A stretch of 64,000 nucleotides of DNA from positions 248,001 to 312,000 of the forward strand of contig JAIVFI010000012.1 in the NCBI GenBank assembly GCA_025558095.1, read 5' to 3'. The notes under the pieces were generated by a model that did no database searches, was not told the DNA's origin, and saw nothing but the letters and a program-made list of their open reading frames with translations. The position numbers and the translations under genes were made by a program. The first letter of the stretch is position 1, and each line of letters starts with the position of its first letter. Shown in pieces: positions 18,036 to 64,000 of the stretch. The stretch comes from Hyaloraphidium curvatum (taxonomy: Eukaryota; Monoblepharomycota; Hyaloraphidiomycetes; Hyaloraphidiales; Hyaloraphidiaceae).

Positions 18036-19946
18036 ATGCTCGATCCATGCTGCTTCATCCGCGGCCGCGCTTCGGTGCCGGCGGTGAGGCGGACGGTCGT
18101 GATGACCCACCTCGAGGACCCGCGGTGCGATCGCACTGCCACAGGGCTCGGCAAACACGCCTTCTCGGATCGCGGGCCAACGAATCGGGGCCGCCACCGC
18201 GCCGGCGTGGCAATGAATTCCCCGCCAGACGCGGCATCGGGCCCGCGGGTGTCGACCGGCGGGTCCGCGGACACGGAGACGGGCGGGAGTCTGCCCGGTT
18301 CCTCGGCATCGGCCGCGACGCTCGGCCCGTATCCGGGCGGCACGGGACCGCCGCCGCTGCCGCTCAACGGACCGCCGATGGAATCGACGTTCGCCTCGGG
18401 GGACGGTGCCGGCGGGCCGGCGGAGAAGCTTTTCCAGGCGGAGGCAGCCGGCACTGCAGCCAATGGGACGGCAAACGGCCTGGCCGCACCGTTGCTCCCG
18501 GCACCCAAGCCTCCCGACGAGGATGTCGACTTTGTGCAGGAGGTCTACAACATCACCAGTGTTTCGACGGCCCACGGCGTGTGGCGCGTCTTCGACAGGA
18601 AGCGCTCCATGGCGAACCGCCTCTGCTGGGCCGTCCTTTGGCTCACGGCCGCCGGGCTGTTCATCACCTATCTCGTGCTCCAGTCGATGTACCTCGCCGA
18701 GTCACCGACGAGCACCCTCATCACCCAGGAGGTCGTCAGCCCCATGCCCTTCCCCGCCGTCTCGATCTGCCTGAGCAGCCTCAACACCTCGCTGATCCGC
18801 GCCTTCGTGCGGCCCATCCCCCCTGGGCCACCCCAGCAACAGCTGGAGACGCTGCTCAACTCGAGCGGCGTGCTGTGCTACTTTGGCTGGCGCACGCTGC
18901 GGCAGCTCTGGAACTCGGACTACTCACTGGGCACCCAGTCGTGCCGCGAGAACGCGACGCTCACCTGGGCGGACTATCCCTTCGCATCGTCGCCGACGCT
19001 CTGCATCACCACCCCGCCGGGCCTCCTGGCGGAGCAGCCCGGCGTCTCGCTGCGGTTCATCGGCCGCCTTCCCTTCCTCGAACCCTTCGACACCGTCACC
19101 TACTCGCTCCGCACCCCGGAATCGCAGATCGAGCCCCTCCTCTCGAACTTTGTCGTCTTTGGCGCCAACACCCGCGTGCGGTTCCAGACCACCATCAGCA
19201 AATCCCTCAAGGAGTGCGATCCCAACCCGGGCGGCCAGCCCGTGTGTTTCTCGCGGTTCCAGCAGCAGTGCATCGAGCGCGCTTGCGACTGCAAGTACCC
19301 CGTCATCGAGCCCGGCATGGCCGAGGAGGACCTGGCGGCGCAGCTCCCCGGTTCCTGCGCGTCCAAGAACCGCGAAGGGACGTGCACGTACCACGACCCA
19401 ATTTTCCCGTGCCCCGACTCGAAGAAGCACCGCAACTGCACCCTCCAGACCCTGTGCGGCCCCACCGAGAGCAAGAAGGCCTGCCCGCTGCCGTCGTGCG
19501 AGGAGACGGACTACCCGCAGGTCGCCTCGCTGTCGCCCATCTCCGAGACGACGTTCGAGGACGTGGCCAACGGCACCGCGGGGACGCTATTCGTGCTTTC
19601 GGTGCTGCTCGAGACGCAGACCGTGACGCTGATCGAGGAGACCGAGGCGTACACGGTGCTCAGCTACCTCGGCGCCGTGGGCGGCATGATGGGCCTGCTG
19701 CTCGGCTTTTCGGTCCTGACCATCCTGGAGTGGTTTGAGGGCTGCTTCCACATCGGGACGAAGGTGGAGGAGATCATCGAGGAGGCGGCGGAGGACGCGG
19801 GGCTGATTTCCGATTCGGACGACGAGGAGGAGGGCAAGGCCGAGGACGTGTTTGCCGGGGTCGAGATGGCCGAGAGGGCGGCGACCGACGTCCCCAAGGC
19901 CGATGAGCCTGTGACGGTGGCCGACCGAGCGGCCACGGTGGCCTGA
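18036..19946 (+). CDS. DEG/ENaC (amiloride-sensitive sodium channel) family protein
   Basis: Intronless, 636 residues from the ATG at 18036; ATGs at 18102 or 18213 are alternatives. A long Gly/Pro/Ala-rich cytosolic N-tail leads to the HG gating motif (STAHGVWRVFDR, His180-Gly181), TM1 about 197-215, then the post-TM1 box PMPFPAVSICLS equivalent to FPAVTIC. The ectodomain is Cys-rich with N-glycosylation sites and a CFSRFQQQCIERACDCKYP cluster matching the ENaC Cys-rich region. TM2 (about 539-565) reads LGAVGGMMGLLLGFSVLTIL with GFS at the G/S-x-S selectivity filter and the conserved Glu after it, then an acidic C-tail. Relatives are trimeric Na+ channels, essentially animal and scattered protist proteins, so a fungal copy is unusual. 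Confidence 0.9.
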   Translation: MLDPCCFIRGRASVPAVRRTVVMTHLEDPRCDRTATGLGKHAFSDRGPTNRGRHRAGVAMNSPPDAASGPRVSTGGSADTETGGSLPGSSASAATLGPYPGGTGPPPLPLNGPPMESTFASGDGAGGPAEKLFQAEAAGTAANGTANGLAAPLLPAPKPPDEDVDFVQEVYNITSVSTAHGVWRVFDRKRSMANRLCWAVLWLTAAGLFITYLVLQSMYLAESPTSTLITQEVVSPMPFPAVSICLSSLNTSLIRAFVRPIPPGPPQQQLETLLNSSGVLCYFGWRTLRQLWNSDYSLGTQSCRENATLTWADYPFASSPTLCITTPPGLLAEQPGVSLRFIGRLPFLEPFDTVTYSLRTPESQIEPLLSNFVVFGANTRVRFQTTISKSLKECDPNPGGQPVCFSRFQQQCIERACDCKYPVIEPGMAEEDLAAQLPGSCASKNREGTCTYHDPIFPCPDSKKHRNCTLQTLCGPTESKKACPLPSCEETDYPQVASLSPISETTFEDVANGTAGTLFVLSVLLETQTVTLIEETEAYTVLSYLGAVGGMMGLLLGFSVLTILEWFEGCFHIGTKVEEIIEEAAEDAGLISDSDDEEEGKAEDVFAGVEMAERAATDVPKADEPVTVADRAATVA

Positions 19947-44290: not shown

Positions 44291-45561
44291 TCAAGGCCTC
44301 GAGCAACCCGACTTGGCCGTCAGCGCCGCCGGGCAGACCACCTGCTGGTACCTCACGTTCGGGTTGTCCGCCCCCATGAACCAGCCGAACCTCCAATGGC
44401 ATCCCGGCTGCAGCACGCTGGGCAGCACCGAGCACTGCGAGTCGGACGACACCCCGCCGTACCGTGCGCCCCAGGTGTTTGCGTCCACGCCGAACTGCGC
44501 CGAGCAGCCGTCGAAGATGCCGAGGCCGCCGCCGGGCATCATGAGGTCGAACTGCCCGCTGCCGACGTCGCCGCCGGAGTTGGTGATCTGCACGACGAGG
44601 GTCTTGCCGACGACGGGGCCGCTCGTGAACTGGGAAGCGGAGGTGTGAGCGACGATCTTTGCGGACAACAAGGTTCATCTCACCGAAAGAGCAAAGCATG
44701 CGCAGCATCCCTGGTTCAAGGGAAACGATGCGGCGGCGAATCCGTACGCCAACGTGTCCGAAACCGCCCACGGCTGCTGATCGATGCAGGTGTACGACTT
44801 GCCATCCTCCGGCCCGACCGAGCCCCCGCCGCCGCAAGCATTGACGACGTTCTGGTCGCTCAGGGTGAAGCCGGACTTGGTGCACGAGCGGGAGCCGATC
44901 CCGAGGCCGGTGTTCCCGGGCCAGGCGCAGCTGGGCTTGCAGCAGTCCCAGTAGCGGGTCGTCCAGCCGTTGCCCGAGAATCCGCCCGGAACCGGGGTCA
45001 GGCCGGCGGGAGGAGGAGGAGTCGGCGGCGGGGCAGGGGCCTTGGTTGTCGTGGTCCTGGTCCTGGTTCGGGTGGTCGTAGGGCTGCGGACGGTGCCCGG
45101 CTTTGTCGTGGTGCGGCCCCTGGTGGTAGTAGAGGTCTTCTTCGCCGCCGTCGCCGAAGTCGTGGTCTTCACGGGGTTCGTCGTAGGCAGGCATTGCGAG
45201 TAGTAGTCATTCGAGACGACGCAGGTGCTTCCGTCCGCGCAGCAGGTCGGGCCCGTCCACCCGGTTCCGCCGCATTGCCCCCAGACCGATGAGCAGCCGG
45301 TCGTCGCGCCCGGAGAAGACGACTGCAGGCACTGGAGGAAGCGGTTAGCAATCACGGACTCCGAGCCTGCAGAGCTGCGGTCACCTGGCTGTAGTACGCG
45401 TTTTGAACCTTGCATGCCCACCCCGACGGGCAGCACGTCGGGCCGGTGAAACCGATGCCTCCGCATTGTCCCCACTGCGCGGCACATTGCGCGCCCACAT
45501 TAGCGGCAAGGGACAGCCACAGGGCAGCCGCGAACAGCACGGACGCAGCGAGAGGAGCCAT
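44291..45561 (-). CDS. Secreted endoglucanase: CBM1-CBM1-linker-GH45
   Basis: Three exons; introns 45332-45384 (53 bp) and 44630-44683 (54 bp) give 387 residues. A signal peptide ([20 protein letters not shown]) is followed by two fungal cellulose-binding modules: [20 protein letters not shown] and [20 protein letters not shown], each with the CBM1 Cys pattern. A Thr/Arg/Pro linker leads to the GH45 catalytic domain with [16 protein letters not shown] carrying the first catalytic Asp, [17 protein letters not shown], and [11 protein letters not shown] with the second. The C-terminal block holds further conserved Cys. The enzyme cleaves internal beta-1,4-glucan bonds of cellulose outside the cell. 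Two consecutive CBM1 modules are unusual. It is the clearest fungal marker in the window. Confidence 0.95.
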
Positions 45562-55499: not shown

Positions 55500-55810
55500 G
55501 CAGCCGACTGCGATGCGATCATGGTCTGCGCGAGGTCCTTTGTCGCCGAGTCGGTCGGGGGCAGCTTCACGCAGAGGACGTGCACCAGTGAGGGCTTGGT
55601 GGTGGCTTAATCGGCCCGCGAGAGACGTTGCCAGCAGTCTTCATTCAACATGCTTTGTCTGATGTTCATCGTTCAGTTACCATACTTTGTCGTTCTGGGA
55701 GTCTGGGGTCCTTGTTTCGATCGCCATCCTTTGTCGTGCGGGAGCCTTTCGGAAGACACGGTGCTCCGCCCTGGTGGAGCCGGGCAACACCTCGGTAGGC
55801 CCGTGGGCGT
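55500..55810 (+). pseudogene. Decayed partial copy of the 3' end of the EGF-like gene
   Basis: Around 55522-55600 a stretch encodes VCARSFVAESVGGSFTQRTC, clearly the counterpart of VCARYFVVSATGTFVQRAC in the last exon of the 56492-57587 gene. Further downstream, 55740-55790 matches 57661-57710 just past that gene's stop. The offset is about 1,912-1,921 bp in both places, so this is a tandem duplication of roughly 1.9 kb whose upstream copy has lost its frame and upstream exons. The earlier exons cannot be recognised. Confidence 0.65.
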
Positions 55811-56491: not shown

Positions 56492-57587
56492 ATGCCCGCC
56501 ACCCGCCGGATCCGCCTCCTCCTCGCCGCCGCGGCGCTTGCGCTCCTCGCCGCGCGGCCCGCATCGTGGGCGCCGCGCCGCCGCCGCCGCGCGGGCACCG
56601 CTGACGCTCAGGCACCGCAGGTCGGCCCCCGCGGGCGCCGCAGGCCAGCTCCAGACAGCCGCGGCCTCGTCGCAGCTCGCCGACAAGGGCGAGAACGTGG
56701 TGTTCCGGAGGTCGTGTGCCGGCTGCCCCGAGGACTCGTACTGTGGGTTCCCGCCTTGCGCGCCCCGCCCCTGGCGCCGCTCAGCCGCGTCGGGCGGCGG
56801 CTCCGCGCGAGGCAAATAGCTGACCTGCGATCCTCGATTGGCTTTTCCTCCCTTGCGACCCGCGCGCCGACGTGCCGCCCTCGGATCCCCCCTCCCATCG
56901 TCGACAGGCGAATATGGCTACGCAGGCAGCGAAGGCGGCGTTGCTTGCGTGTCCTACCAGCTCAAGAACCACCTGTACCGCCGCTACGCGCCCCCAGACG
57001 AGGGTCCGAACTGCCAGAGAAACATCCTTGTCGGACCCGGTATCAATCCGTGCTCGAACGGGGGCACCTGCGTCAACGCCACGGGGACCGGGTTGGGCTT
57101 CACCTGCTCCTGCGCCACGGATTACACAGGGGGCCGTGCGTACCTGACAGCCGCCCCTCCGCCCCGGGAAGCTCAACCAGCCGTGCCATCGCCCCGCAGT
57201 GTGCCAGTCGACGATCAACTACTGCCTGCTCGCCACGTGCAAGAACGGCGCCACGTGCACCGTGCTCATCACCCGCCCCTTCTACTCCTGGTGGGCCTGA
57301 CCTGTACTATACGCCGGAAATACCTCTGACCTGCCCACCGCAGCCAATGCCAGCCTGCCTTCCGGGGCACCAACTGCGAGGAGCAATACTTTGTCCCCCC
57401 TTCCGGGGGAACCGGCAACTATGGCGACGCCGAGGTCTGCGCGAGGTACTTTGTCGTCTCGGCGACCGGAACCTTCGTCCAGAGGGCGTGCACCAAGTTC
57501 GGATCGACTCAATACGTCTACGACACCGTATCGCGGCGGTGCGTGGCTCCATCGATCAATACGGTGACGATGCAGGGATGCAGGTGA
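56492..57587 (+). CDS. Secreted protein with two EGF-like domains
   Basis: Five exons; introns 56566-56620 (55 bp), 56743-56907 (165 bp, least certain), 57136-57199 and 57291-57343, giving 252 residues. A signal peptide (RLLLAAAALALLAARPAS) precedes NVVFRRSCAGCPEDSYCEYG, then EGF 1: INPCSNGGTCVNATG, FTCSCATDYTGGLC, and EGF 2: NYCLLATCKNGATCTVLI, FYSCQCQPAFRGTNCEEQ. Each has six Cys in EGF spacing, and the joints are only correct after splicing. A C-terminal Cys-rich block (CARYFVVSATGTFVQRAC, VSRRCVAPSIN) ends in GCR. EGF 1 has Thr in the C-x-x-x-Y-T-G context modified by EOGT in animals. The 165-bp intron could hide an extra exon. Function: extracellular recognition (inference). Confidence 0.8.
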
Positions 57588-57789
57588 TCGCACGCGGAGG
57601 AGCGGGGTGTCACTCGGGGGAAACCACGATTCTGGGCCATCATTTCCCCATGCTTTGTCATTGCAGCCTTTGGGAAACACATTGTTGCGCCCCGGCGGGC
57701 CGGGAAAGGCGTGTATGTGCTGCGCGGCAATACACGGGTGTACCATTATGGCTAGCACGTCCGTCGGATGCGGATCGCCAGCGGAAGCA

Positions 57790-59169
57790 TCACAGCTCGC
57801 CGTGTGCGCCGCCATCCAAGCCCGGGAACACCGGATGCCCCAACACGTGGTCCACCGCGTCCCCCAGCAGCCCCAGGAACGCTTTCTCGGAGACCGCGTA
57901 GTTCCAGTACTTTTCCTCCCCCAGCCTCGCCTCGTCCGGCCCGGGCTCCTTCCGCACGATGTTCCCCGGGCCCCCCGCGGCGTACCCCAGCCCCAGCAGC
58001 CGGCTCAGGTCGCGGAAGCACCGGTCCCCGGCGTCGTACAGCTCGACGACGGCGGCCCAGGGGGGCAGGAACAGCGCGTGGGCGAGGCCGGCGCCGTGGA
58101 TGCCCGCGAGCACGTCGGCGGTGCTGGTCAGGCGGACCTGGTCCTCGAACGGCACGCGCTCGCCGAAACCGAAGCGGGCGACGAGCAGTTCCGCGCGGGG
58201 GAAGCGGCGGCGGGCGGCGGCGGCCAGGTCGGCCTCGTTGAGGAGGCGTCGCGTGGGGCCGGAGCGGGAGAGGAGCACGATCTTCAGTTTTGCGCGGGGA
58301 CGGCGGCGTTCGGCTGCGATGCGGTTGCCGAACAGCGCCGCAAGCTGGGCGCGCGAGTACGCCGGCAGGAAGCTGCCCGGGCCCGCGCGGCACCCGGACG
58401 GCACGGGCTGGTTGTAGAAAAAGGTGAACAGCGAGCGCGGCTTGACGGCAAAGACCACACGGTCGAAGCACAGCGTCCGGTTCGCGTGCTCGGAGAGGTG
58501 GATGAGCGGTTCGGTCGTGAAGAGCGCGTGCAGCGCGTCGAACGGCGAGCCCACGTAGAAGGCGTTCGGCTCGTGGTAGAGGACACGCATGGCGTCGGGG
58601 GGCTCGTCCTGCAGGCCGACGGCCCACAGCGACAGGTACAGGTTCGGGAAATCGCACAGCTTGTGGTACACGCTGGCCGGCGAGTCGCCGTGCGTGGCCA
58701 TCACGGTCTTTGAGAACAATGTGTCGCACTTTGGAGGCGGCGTGAGGCGGAACCTGCCGAGCTCCCCGACCCAGTTGCCCAGCTCGAACGGCGACCGCGT
58801 CGGCGGTGGGTAGTCCGGGTCCAGGTTGCACGCCCCGCGGGCGCCGACCGTCCCATCGCCCGAGATCCACACGTGGCGGGCGTCGCAGAGCGTCATGTCG
58901 GCGTTGCAGCGGAGCGATGTGCGGCCCTCGCGGAGGTCCCCTCTGCAGTACTCGCGTACGGCGCCCGCACGGGCCGCGGCGCCCCAGTCGCAGATGTTCC
59001 ACCACCGAGCGCCACTCGCGGGGTCGGAGCAGCGCGCGCCGGCGGCCTCCATGCCGGGCTCGGGGCCGACAAGCGGCGCGGCTGCCTCCGCCGGCAGCGC
59101 CCCCGCCGGCAGTGCCCCCGCCAGCACTGCGGCGCCCGCCAACGCCGCGGCCGCAAGGACCCGCAGCAT
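57790..59169 (-). CDS. EOGT-like GT61 glycosyltransferase (EGF O-GlcNAc transferase type)
   Basis: 459 residues, intronless, ATG at 59169 (the longer frame starts with TTG). A signal peptide (LRVLAAAALAGAAVLAGALP) makes it lumenal. The GT61/EOGT landmarks are present: SVYHKLCDFPNLYLSLWAVG, corresponding to the HFCDFxNLY block, and TADVLAGIHGAGLAHALFLP with WAAVVELYDAGDRCFRDLSR, the nucleotide-sugar binding region. The last four residues are HGEL, close to the KDEL/HDEL ER-retention signal; animal EOGT is also an ER lumenal enzyme with a KDEL-like tail. EOGT adds O-GlcNAc to EGF domains. Relatives in the same family (POMGNT2, plant xylosyltransferases) have other acceptors, so specificity is inference, supported by the adjacent EGF gene. 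Convergent with it, 203 bp apart. Confidence 0.78.
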   Translation of the reverse strand: MLRVLAAAALAGAAVLAGALPAGALPAEAAAPLVGPEPGMEAAGARCSDPASGARWWNICDWGAAARAGAVREYCRGDLREGRTSLRCNADMTLCDARHVWISGDGTVGARGACNLDPDYPPPTRSPFELGNWVGELGRFRLTPPPKCDTLFSKTVMATHGDSPASVYHKLCDFPNLYLSLWAVGLQDEPPDAMRVLYHEPNAFYVGSPFDALHALFTTEPLIHLSEHANRTLCFDRVVFAVKPRSLFTFFYNQPVPSGCRAGPGSFLPAYSRAQLAALFGNRIAAERRRPRAKLKIVLLSRSGPTRRLLNEADLAAAARRRFPRAELLVARFGFGERVPFEDQVRLTSTADVLAGIHGAGLAHALFLPPWAAVVELYDAGDRCFRDLSRLLGLGYAAGGPGNIVRKEPGPDEARLGEEKYWNYAVSEKAFLGLLGDAVDHVLGHPVFPGLDGGAHGEL

Positions 59170-59309
59170 CGCGTCCGAACTAGCTTCAAGGGTTCCGACG
59201 ATGACATGCAGGGCTCGAAGGGCCAACCACGCTGCACGGACGCGCGATCGACGTGAGTGATCGACGAGGGCGTCCCATTATTTGCTTGTGCTAGCGGGGC
59301 GGGGCCTCC

Positions 59310-61619
59310 ATGGCGCGGCCCGAGGCGTCGTCGCAGCTGCTGCTTGCGCTGCTGCTGCTGTCCGTGCTGGGGATTCTGGCCGGCGGCCTCCGCGGCGAGC
59401 CGTCGCGGCGCGTGCTCCTTCCCCTCGGCGAGCGCGGGCCGCGGTTCCGCCGTGCCGACGCGTTTCTGAACAAACTGCGCGACGACGTTGCGGCGGCGGG
59501 GGACGCGGACGACGACGGCGGCGATGGCGAAGGGGGGCCGCCCGTGGCCGCGTCGCTGGCGCCCGACGGCTCGGTGGTGCTGCGCGTCGGCGCCGGCCTG
59601 CCGCACCCGCTGTCGGCGGACGCCATTTCGCGCGCCCTGGACGCCGCCAAGGGGGAGATTGCGCGTCTGCTCGCGGGGAAGCCGGGGAACGTGGTGGTGC
59701 GGACAGAGACCAACTTTGCGTCCCAGATGGAGCTCGGCACGCCCACGCTGGAGACCGTGACCGAAGAGTGCCTGGTGTGGGTCAACGGTACGGGCATGGA
59801 AAGTGCGGAATATGTGGCCCAGGACGGCGCAGAGGGGGTGGAACCGGAAGACGGGTCCGGCTTTTGCGCGGTCTACGCGGCCCTGCGAGGTGAGGACGAG
59901 GAGGACGGCCTGCTCTACATTGGCGATTTCGAGGACGGCGCGTCCATGGAGTACGCGCCGCTGCCGGTCGCCGATCCGCCGCTGAGCATCAAGCCGGACC
60001 TGCCGTTCGGCTCGCCCTCGTGGCTGGAGCACTTCCGCGCCAAAATCCGCGAGATGTTCTTCCACGCCTTTGGCGCCTACCTGCAGCACGCCTACCCCAA
60101 GGACGAGCTGCGCCCGCTCTCGTGCGCGGGCGAGGACAACTTTGGCGGCACCCAGGCCACGCTGATCGACTCGCTCGACACCCTCGCGGTGCTCGGCGAG
60201 TGGGACCTGCTGCGCTCGTGCCTCTCGCTCGCCCGCTCGGCGAGCTTCGACGGCGACGCCGACGTCTCGGTCTTCGAAACCAACATCCGCATCCTGGGCG
60301 GCCTCCTCTCGGCGCACCTGGCCGCGCAGCGCGGCGTTCCGGGCTACTCTGGCCACCTGCTTTCCCAAGCTCACGACCTCGGCCGCCGCCTGCTCCGCGC
60401 CTTCGCCTCCAGCAGCACCGGCATGCCCTACGGCACCGTCAACCTGCGCACGGGGATCAAGCGCGGCGAGACCGAGAGCACCTGCACCGCGTGCGTGGGC
60501 ACCTACGCGCTCGAGTTTTCCTGGCTGAGCCTGCTCACGGGGGACGCCTCGTTCGAGCGGGCCTCGCGCCGCGCGGTGCGCGCGCTGGCGAGGTCGGCCA
60601 CGCCGCTGGGGCTGTACGGGGGCCACGTCAACATCACCTCGGGCGAGTGGATCCACGCCGAGGCGTCCGTGGGCGCGGATTCGGACTCGTTCTACGAGTA
60701 CCTCTTCAAGGCGCACTTTGCATTCGCGGACGAGGCCGAGTACGGTCCCATCGCCGCCGCCGCGCTGGAAGGCATCCGGACGCACCTCAAGAAGGGCGTC
60801 TGGCACTTTGACGTGCACGCCTCCAACGGGCAGACCGTCTTTCCCTGGCACCACTCGCTCGCCGCCTTCTTCCCCGGGCTCAAGGTCCTCCGCGGGGACC
60901 TCCTCGAGGCGCAGGACGAGCTCTGGTCCAGCCGCATGATCATGGACCGCTGCGGCGGCTTCCTACCCGAGCAGTTCGACCTCCGCTCCGCCTCCCCGGT
61001 CGCGGGGAGGTCGCACTACCCCCTGCGCCCCGAGTTCGCCGAGAGCGCGTGGGCGCTGCACCGCGCCACGCGCGACCCGTGGCTGCTGGACTGGGCCGCG
61101 CGGTTCGCGGCGGACCTGGACACGCGGACTAGGGTGGGCTGCGGGTTCGCGGGGCTCGCGGACGTCGGCACGGGGGAGCTGGCGGACAGGATGGACAGCT
61201 TCCTGCTCAGCGAGACGCTCAAGTACCTCTACCTGGTCTTCGACGCGGGGAACGAGTACAACGGCCCGCCCAACGGGCGCGACTGGGTGTTCACGACCGA
61301 GGCGCACCCGCTGCCCGTGACGGACAGGCGGGGCTGGCGCGGCGGGCGGTGGGTCGGGGTGGACCGGCGCAGGCGCAAAAGGCGCGCGGGCCCGGAATCC
61401 CCGCCGCCGCCGCCCGCGCCGCCGTTCAGCGACCCGGGCACGCGCACGTTCGAGAGCCCGGCCATGGTCTCGGCGATCCACGCCGAGTCGGTGGGGGCGT
61501 ACAGGGAGCGCAGCCGCGCCGCGTGGGAGGCGGGGGTGTGTTTGTACGACGAGTGGGTGGAGGCGACGCACGGAAGGATATGGGGGCGGACGGTGGGGGG
61601 AATGAGGATCAGGGGGTGA
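59310..61619 (+). CDS. GH47 EDEM-type ER mannosidase-like protein
   Basis: 769 residues, intronless, ATG at 59310. An N-terminal anchor LLLALLLLSVLGILAGGL is followed by an about 230-residue insert rich in Glu/Asp/Gly not seen in short EDEMs, then the GH47 domain: FHAFGAYLQHAYPKDELRPL, NFGGTQATLIDSLDTLAVLG, SVFETNIRILGGLLSAH, MPYGTVNLRTG, SDSFYEYLFKAHF, HPLRPEFAESAWALHRATRD (PLRPExxES) and the Thr-containing WVFTTEAHPLPVT. EDEMs trim mannose from misfolded glycoproteins for ERAD. Divergent from the EOGT-like gene with 140 bp between starts. A Pro/Arg-rich stretch precedes the C-terminus; catalytic acids appear present. The unusual long N-terminal region is real open frame with matching codon use. 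Confidence 0.9.
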   Translation: MARPEASSQLLLALLLLSVLGILAGGLRGEPSRRVLLPLGERGPRFRRADAFLNKLRDDVAAAGDADDDGGDGEGGPPVAASLAPDGSVVLRVGAGLPHPLSADAISRALDAAKGEIARLLAGKPGNVVVRTETNFASQMELGTPTLETVTEECLVWVNGTGMESAEYVAQDGAEGVEPEDGSGFCAVYAALRGEDEEDGLLYIGDFEDGASMEYAPLPVADPPLSIKPDLPFGSPSWLEHFRAKIREMFFHAFGAYLQHAYPKDELRPLSCAGEDNFGGTQATLIDSLDTLAVLGEWDLLRSCLSLARSASFDGDADVSVFETNIRILGGLLSAHLAAQRGVPGYSGHLLSQAHDLGRRLLRAFASSSTGMPYGTVNLRTGIKRGETESTCTACVGTYALEFSWLSLLTGDASFERASRRAVRALARSATPLGLYGGHVNITSGEWIHAEASVGADSDSFYEYLFKAHFAFADEAEYGPIAAAALEGIRTHLKKGVWHFDVHASNGQTVFPWHHSLAAFFPGLKVLRGDLLEAQDELWSSRMIMDRCGGFLPEQFDLRSASPVAGRSHYPLRPEFAESAWALHRATRDPWLLDWAARFAADLDTRTRVGCGFAGLADVGTGELADRMDSFLLSETLKYLYLVFDAGNEYNGPPNGRDWVFTTEAHPLPVTDRRGWRGGRWVGVDRRRRKRRAGPESPPPPPAPPFSDPGTRTFESPAMVSAIHAESVGAYRERSRAAWEAGVCLYDEWVEATHGRIWGRTVGGMRIRG

Positions 61620-61760
61620 GGCGGGGCGGGCGGTCGGGCCGAAGAGGTTGCTTGTAGGGGGAAAGCACGCCACCGTTCGGCTGATACAAGCCCGCTGACT
61701 CGGAGACGATTCCCCGCTTCTCCATGGCTTACATGGAGCAGGGGTAAGACCCACGGATAA

Positions 61761-64000
61761 TCACTCGGCCTTGGCCTCTGCCTTGGCCTCGGACCCGTTC
61801 TCCGCCTTCCGCTTCTTCTTCTTGGCTTTCTTGCCGTGCTTCCCCTTCCTGGCGACCGGCAGCGGGTGCGCCTCGGTGTTGAACACCCACTCGTCCAGCG
61901 GCAGCAGGTCGTCGTCCGCAAAGGTGAGCAGCAGGTACTTCATCGTCTCGGCGATGAAGAAGCTCTCCTGCAGGTCCACGTGCGGCAGCCCGGCGTCCGA
62001 AAAGTCCATCTCCCCCGGATCCTCCAGCTTCGCCCGCTCCTTGGTCCCGATCCGGATCCCGCCGTCGGTACTCACGTCCGACAACCCCGCGTAGCCGTCC
62101 GGGGTTGCGCACCACGTCTGGATGGCGCGCATGATCTGCCACGCCCAGTCGCGGTACCGCTGCTCGTGGGTCAGGCGCCACATGTAGAAGATGCTCTCGA
62201 CGGTCTCGGGGCGGAGGAGGTACTGCCGAGCGTACGATGAGGGGAAGGGGCGCAGATGGGGGCCGGAAAAGTCGATGACTTCCGGTCCGATGCCCGTCGC
62301 TGGCGATTGAGGACGAAATCAGCCCTTCGGAACGGCGAGCAACGGGGGAGGATGCCCACGTTGGTCCGCGTACGAATCCCGGCACGTCTTGGTGAACCCC
62401 TCCCCCCACCGGAACAGCTTCTCCTGCTCCGCCTTCCCCTTTGCGTCCTTGCCCTCCCACGTGCGCGCACCGAGCGCCAACGTCCCCCCCATGAAGCACG
62501 CCAGGTGCTCCAGCGACGAACCCCCGCCCCCTGCGGGCCCGTCGGGGAAATATGTGAGCACGCGGCCGTCCTTAGTCACGTTGCGGCCCAAGTGGGCGAC
62601 GATGGAGACGGCGGCCTCATCCCAAGCCTCGCGGAGGTGCGATTCCGAGGCGTCCTTGCCCGAGAGGAGCCACTGCTTGAGGAGGTACTCGTAGAACGAG
62701 TCGACGCCGCCCCCGATCTTGTAGTTTTCTGCGGAGGAGCGGGGATCAGAGGCAGCCGGCATTCGCACGACGGGAGCACCCACGTTCGTAAACCCACGAC
62801 GGGCTCATCCCCATCGCCGCGCTTATCCCCGGCATGATCTTGAACGGGTACAGCCCCTTGACCTTGAGCTGCTTCCTCAGCTGCATGAGCTGCGAGTTTG
62901 CCCCCTCCACCCTCGCCGAGTACTTGCGCCCCTCCTTGCCGCCCACCGCCCTCGCCAGGTACGTGAACTCGAGCTGGAACGTGCCCACCTCGGCCAGGCC
63001 GAGGCCGCCGCCCATCCACCCCAAGGGGGCCGCGGAGCCGTCGCGGAGGTTGACCTGGCCCATGGGGAGGCCGGCGCCGGACTCGGTGAAGGCGCCCGAG
63101 AGGCGGTCGGCGAGGTCGCGCGCTTTGGAGAGGAGGCCGGGGTCGGAGGTGAGGGCGTAGGCGGAGAGGAGGCCGCCGAGCTGGCGGATGGTGGTCTCGA
63201 AGAAGGAGACCAGGACGGGCTTCAAGGGCGGAATCAGCGAGGGGCAGACATGCGAGCAAAGAGGCGACCCACGGCATTGGGGTCGAAGGTGTCGACGAGT
63301 TTGCGCGCCTCCTCGTACTCGGCCTTGAGCCCGGCCAGCCAGAGCGTGTCGAGCGAGTCGATGGGCGTGTTGAGCAGCGGGTAGTTGCGCGAGTACCAGT
63401 TCCTGGGTCCCTTTTGCATCGGATACAGGTCGTCTGCGCCCTTGGCGTAGCGCATGTACGAGCCCCAGGCGTGCTTGATCATGGTGCGTGCGTAGGTGAG
63501 GTTGGCGGGGTCGCAGAGCGGGGTGTGGCAGCCCGTGGGTCCGGCGAGCTCCGGAAATTCGGAGGTGGGGTAAGGTGGGCCGCCGGCGCGGGGCTCTGTG
63601 CGCCCGGGCGCGGGGCGGGGGCCCGGAGGGGCGAAATGGGGCTGCTGCTTCGAGACCGCGGCGCCCGAGAGCCTGTCCACGATATCCTGCGCGTTCGGCA
63701 GGCCCTCGAAGATGGGCTCGGCCATCTTGATCTTGGGCGGGCCCTTGCCCTCGGCGTCTGCGCCGCCGGCCTCCTCCGCGCCGCCGGCGTGCTCGGACCC
63801 GTCTGCCTTGCCGCCGTCGCCCCCGCCGTACGCGCCGGGCTTCTTCCCCTTGCGCTCCTTCTCCGCGTTTTTCAGCTCGCTGCGGTCCTTCTTGCGGCGC
63901 GCCTCCCACTCCTTGCGCAGCGCGTCGCCCTTTCCCGGCTTTGGCGACAGGATGATGCCGTCGCGCGCGCCCCGCTCGTCGTCGCCTTTATCGGCCTTGC
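61761..64000 (-). CDS. GH47 alpha-mannosidase (partial, 5' end beyond window)
   Basis: Continuing off the right edge. Introns 63220-63272 (53 bp), 62729-62783 (55 bp) and 62300-62359 (60 bp) join four exons. The GH47 core is complete: MIKHAWGSYMRYAKGADDLY, PIDSLDTLWLAGL, VSFFETTIRQLGGLLSAYAL, LPMGQVNLRDG, VDSFYEYLLKQWLLSGKD, TGIGPEVIDF, QYLLRPETVESIFYMWRLTH and WVFNTEAHPLPV with the Ca-binding Thr. An N-terminal Lys/Glu/Asp-rich region extends to the window edge and a Lys/Ala/Glu tail ends the protein. Unlike the neighbouring EDEM-type gene, sequence blocks resemble class I ER/Golgi alpha-1,2-mannosidases. Convergent with the EDEM-type gene (141 bp gap). Confidence 0.88.

Follow-up and report, generated by a model that had tools for sequence, protein, structure and literature searches.

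An EOGT ortholog in a fungal genome that also encodes POFUT1 and POMGNT2 orthologs

Results

Genes of the locus

The window, that is, the whole stretch of 64,000 nucleotides analysed here, spans positions 248001-312000 of a 786-kb contig in a 32-Mb genome (G+C 66%). The source organism is a fungus, as a sequence-only reading of this DNA had stated: a genome search gave 96 Zn2Cys6 matches, and the window itself holds a gene for a GH45 cellulase with the fungal cellulose-binding domain CBM1 (44678-45499, minus strand). All four genes that the same reading had placed at 56492-57587, 57790-59169, 59310-61619 and from 61761 onward were recovered at these positions, and their E-values rule out chance similarity. 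The features considered below are as follows.

56492-57587, plus strand: gene for a secreted EGF protein, five exons (GT-AG splice model, Pfam EGF match, paralogs)
57012-57204, plus strand: EGF1, from C1 to C6 (sequence), interrupted by the intron at 57136-57199
57066-57068, plus strand: candidate O-fucose acceptor Thr of EGF1, C2-SNGGT-C3 (match to the POFUT1 consensus)
57126-57128, plus strand: candidate O-GlcNAc acceptor Thr of EGF1, C5-ATDY-T-G-GL-C6 (match to the consensus in PMC13123520)
57790-59169, minus strand: EOGT ortholog of family GT61 (mouse EOGT match, tree, Pfam GT61 1.1e-15)
58672-58674, minus strand: codon of Ser166, at the position of mouse Asn245, the N of the N-R-R triad (ungapped alignment around YHxxCDFxNLYL)
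59170-59309, no strand: divergent intergenic stretch of 140 bp between the start codons of EOGT and the EDEM-type GH47 gene (gene coordinates)
59310-61619, plus strand: EDEM-type GH47, 769 aa (Pfam GH47 5.5e-105)
61761-64000, minus strand: second GH47, of class I alpha-1,2-mannosidase type, intron-containing, with its 5' end past the window edge

Elsewhere in the window, at 18036-19943 on the plus strand, lies a gene whose product belongs to the ASC/ENaC/ASIC family of sodium channels (Pfam 5.8e-28; ASIC1 ~1e-12, residues 515-573), an animal-type channel in a fungal genome. A radial-spoke search of the genome was silent, and its controls were equally silent.

The GH47 gene at 59310-61619 matched EDEM1 (5.6e-67) better than mannosidase IA (5.6e-53), and the spliced model of the second matched mannosidase IA at 8.6e-82. 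By these matches both are ordinary N-glycan mannosidases of the secretory pathway, and the secretory glycan island that had been proposed for this region did not hold up. A functional island of the GH47 genes with EOGT was rejected accordingly, one being EDEM-type and the other a class I mannosidase. The 140-bp stretch upstream of EOGT is a possible shared promoter with the EDEM-type gene; since these two lie head-to-head at this short distance, they would be the likeliest co-regulated pair, if there is any. The EGF gene and EOGT are convergent with about 200 bp between them, and no sign of their co-regulation was seen.

The GT61 protein is an EOGT by descent

The GT61 gene is a single exon with its ATG at 59169 and encodes 459 aa. 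In phmmer searches, mouse EOGT (PDB 9wjk; PMC13123520) matched the protein over near its full length (residues 55-449, E=1.1e-47), with 35% identity across 382 aligned positions, whereas POMGNT2 (PDB 6xi2, 7e9j), which has the GT61 core fold and both triad Arg in common with it, matched weakly and in the core part only (3.4e-10). Like mouse EOGT, the protein has a hydrophobic N-terminus that reads as a signal sequence, and its C-terminal HGEL reads as an HDEL-type ER retrieval signal. When mouse EOGT was searched in reverse against the GT61 open frames of the genome, the window protein scored 3e-50 and the runner-up 3e-8, and the window gene was the sole EOGT found. A maximum-likelihood tree paired it with mouse EOGT (96/98). 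Within its 12 rows, which are without plant XylT and other plant or other fungal GT61 proteins, this tree is one of EOGT-type descent for the window protein and shows no grouping with unrelated GT61 clades; wider branching lies outside its sampling. Judged by E-values, reverse search, residue alignment and tree together, the gene is an EOGT ortholog by descent, in agreement with the earlier EOGT-type call. The genome holds more than 20 GT61 domains, the majority apparently neither EOGT nor POMGNT2. A scan of viral and prokaryotic contigs for EOGT relatives found none.

In the EOGT crystal, UDP is contacted by N245, H248, R372, R377, Q412 and H432, which are invariant across metazoan EOGT, and Q412 and H432, whose counterparts are absent from POMGNT2, bind uridine (PMC13123520). 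The equivalents in the window protein, by alignment with mouse EOGT, are S166, H169, R302, R307, Q344 and H364, so that five of the six contacts are kept. The sole mismatch, Asn245 to Ser, sits in an ungapped, strongly conserved stretch and had been overlooked in the sequence-only reading; by eye, the Asn of the triad is present in the POMGNT2 ortholog of the genome and in most other GT61 paralogs. Also common to both proteins are the residues of disease sites, W207 (W133 in the window protein), C135 (C75) and C187 (C114). Besides its fungal host, its limited identity and the Ser, the window protein differs from mouse EOGT in that the N-glycosylation sites N263 and N354 are missing. Single-sequence structure prediction of the window protein gave a pLDDT of 34. 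The alignment thus shows an EOGT-specific UDP pocket retained save for one residue, and the protein is, on this comparison, an EOGT by descent in which one of the published marks of an active GT61 enzyme is missing.

A neighbouring EGF protein with a candidate acceptor site

The EGF gene was modelled with four GT-AG introns (~56566-56611, 56743-56907, 57136-57199 and 57291-57343); the first has four alternatives (56566-56620, or 56621 to 56675, 56687 or 56693), and all five choices leave the frame open. The product of about 240-250 aa comprises a signal peptide, a spacer, EGF1, EGF2 and a C-terminal domain, with six Cys in each EGF domain and a Pfam EGF match (4.2e-9) in two stretches. Between its second and third Cys, EGF1 matches the POFUT1 consensus, C2-x4-[ST]-C3. 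Between the fifth and sixth it reads C-A-T-D-Y-T-G-G-L-C and fits the EOGT acceptor consensus C5-X-X-X-X-T/S-G-X-X-C6 (PMC13123520); EGF2 has Arg there and does not fit. The acceptor Thr in EGF1 and the Arg in EGF2, both noted beforehand, therefore hold in the spliced model, EGF1 meeting the published consensus.

Paralogs of the EGF gene were found on C46, C15, C31 and C40, and the acceptor Thr of EGF1 is present in those on C46 and C40 and absent from those on C15 and C31. The C46 paralog carries a CBM14 chitin-binding domain, with a match (1.2e-4) that passes the curated cut-off; the C-terminal domain of the EGF protein in the window gave no convincing family match. Because the matching domain of the C46 paralog is CBM14, that of the EGF protein in the window is probably a decayed or diverged CBM14. 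A plus-strand stretch at 55523-55587 resembles positions 57434-57495, which code for the C-terminal domain of the EGF protein. No EGF domain was seen there, and the stretch is probably either an incomplete copy of the gene or a paralog lying next to it.

Other EGF proteins and EGF-modifying enzymes in the genome

About 20 loci across the genome carry EGF domains, several with EOGT sites equal to or better than that of EGF1, for instance CASGFSGPYC on C39, CMPGYSGILC on C4, and CPSSFTGTNC and CTSGWTGPTC at C12:744 and C12:645. By hand count, T or S stands at the acceptor position in about 8 of 16 Notch-like EGF domains vs about 6 of 36 nidogen-like ones; the excess is not read as selection, because T is favoured at this position by the EGF consensus at large. 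A near-identical nidogen-like EGF repeat array (CSPNADCANAGGT...) runs in a single frame at C24:148438-151533.

Outside the window, at C44:144921-145877, lies an ortholog of POFUT1 (PDB 5ux6, 3zy2), the partner enzyme for EGF O-fucose, which belongs to the O-FucT family and not to GT61. It is a single-exon frame of 397 aa that scores 7.2e-60 with POFUT1 vs 0.87 with POFUT2 and has the full domain with the HxRxGSDW and NCVSSFTAFVKR motifs. Exons of a GDP-mannose dehydratase on C18, a set that appears near-complete with no lone exon reaching the curated cut-off, would apparently provide for GDP-fucose supply. POMGNT2 is known from animals, where it acts on O-mannosyl dystroglycan. Its ortholog, separate from the window gene, lies at C1:465950-466237 (POMGNT2 1.2e-46 vs EOGT 2.9e-5), pairs with POMGNT2 in the tree (99/99), has the shared C-terminal part, and keeps the Asn, the His and both Arg (N-R-R). 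No clear Fringe was found in the genome, partial GT31-type matches reaching 40 bits at best, and no clear POGLUT1, the best GT90 protein scoring POGLUT1 (3e-26) and POGLUT2 (5e-25) nearly alike and being without a KDEL-like tail.

Discussion

The comparisons described here establish, within one genome, EOGT orthology, EGF proteins with acceptor sites, and POFUT1 and POMGNT2 orthologs; on this basis we regard as real the finding that a fungus carries an EOGT ortholog together with those of POFUT1 and POMGNT2. We consider it probable that the GT61 protein is the ortholog of animal EOGT, is retrieved to the ER, and transfers GlcNAc to the EGF domains of several secreted proteins, alongside POFUT1. 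The gene would have been inherited vertically or acquired anciently. Its product would most likely enter the ER via the signal sequence and be retrieved via the HGEL tail, and would there use UDP-GlcNAc to place GlcNAc on a Ser or Thr that lies between Cys5 and Cys6 in folded EGF domains. Several secreted proteins would receive the sugar, with the adjacent EGF protein as one candidate; POFUT1 would O-fucosylate the same domains between Cys2 and Cys3. Localisation, activity and donor of the fungal EOGT, as well as the neighbour as its real substrate, are what we infer from sequence. The change of Asn245 to Ser, the absence of N263 and N354, and the roughly one half of Notch-like EGF domains without an acceptor speak against the proposed function.

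Predicted activity is the main uncertainty, because Asn245 is Ser166, and for the same reason catalysis by the fungal EOGT is unproven. The protein might thus be an EOGT descendant whose S-R-R triad is inactive, or whose donor or acceptor has changed, acting for example as a chaperone-like EGF binder. In mouse EOGT, N245D and N245Q abolish activity (PMC13123520), and GT61 variants with F, Y or G at this site have been discussed in the literature as functionally distinct. However, Ser is not among the described mouse mutants, the remaining UDP contacts are kept, among them Q412 and H432, which are specific to EOGT, and the catalytic candidate H248, and the frame is undamaged, with a third-position GC of 0.90 like that of the other genes in the window. 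We therefore hold loss or change of function to be a serious but rather unlikely explanation. The natural Ser at position 245 makes this protein a convenient case on which to test the N-R-R rule that has been proposed.

That EOGT and the adjoining EGF protein belong together as linked enzyme and substrate, as the sequence-only reading had it, appears unlikely to us. The adjacency is immediate and the acceptor site in EGF1 stands; with about 20 EGF loci and an assumed 10,000 genes, chance adjacency would be well below 1% for one chosen gene, an estimate that was made post hoc. The pairing is weakened on other grounds: about 20 other EGF loci exist, several with fitting sites, the two genes are convergent, and EGF2 is without an acceptor. 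The claim of an enzyme-substrate pair is thus weak, and given these other loci the neighbour is a plausible substrate of EOGT that is not unique. As POFUT1 and POMGNT2 orthologs occur together with these EGF proteins, we see in this fungus an animal-type toolkit for EGF O-glycosylation in general, and not a dedicated pair.

EOGT is described as a conserved metazoan enzyme whose evolution in early animals may have been coupled to that of EGF domains (PMC13123520), and its treatment in published work as a metazoan enzyme could suggest horizontal transfer from an animal, or contamination of the assembly, in place of inheritance from the animal-fungal ancestor. Both appear quite unlikely, given that the 786-kb contig carries fungal-type genes such as the CBM1-GH45 gene and matches locally in base composition, that identity to mouse is only 35%, and that a comparable divergence is seen in the orthologs of POFUT1 and POMGNT2, which lie on two further contigs. 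An unrelated GT61, such as a plant-like xylosyltransferase or a fungal polysaccharide enzyme with EOGT-like motifs by chance, is a highly improbable source even in a genome with so many GT61 domains, given the E-value gap and the placement in the 12-row tree without plant sequences.

POFUT relatives have been reported from fungi, and changed substrates were expected for these O-FucT subfamilies, since fungal hyphae were described as being without EGF motifs (PMC10481521); in contrast, EGF proteins are present in this genome. EOGT and EGF O-glycans are treated in the literature as animal features, with some O-glycan roots traced to holozoans. Among the open-licence literature we found no paper on a fungal EOGT; such proteins may already carry this name in databases that are annotated automatically.

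Together, EOGT, POFUT1, POMGNT2 and EGF proteins in a fungus would date the origin of EGF glycosylation to a time before animals and fungi diverged, or else uncover ancient transfers, and a fungal EOGT would offer a Notch-independent setting in which to ask what EGF O-GlcNAc does. Tentatively, and at somewhat less than even confidence, we suggest that this lineage of fungi may use a working EOGT with an S-R-R donor site, together with POFUT1, to modify secreted EGF proteins that probably bind chitin, and that Notch-style EGF glycans may predate animals and have been present already in the ancestor that animals share with fungi.
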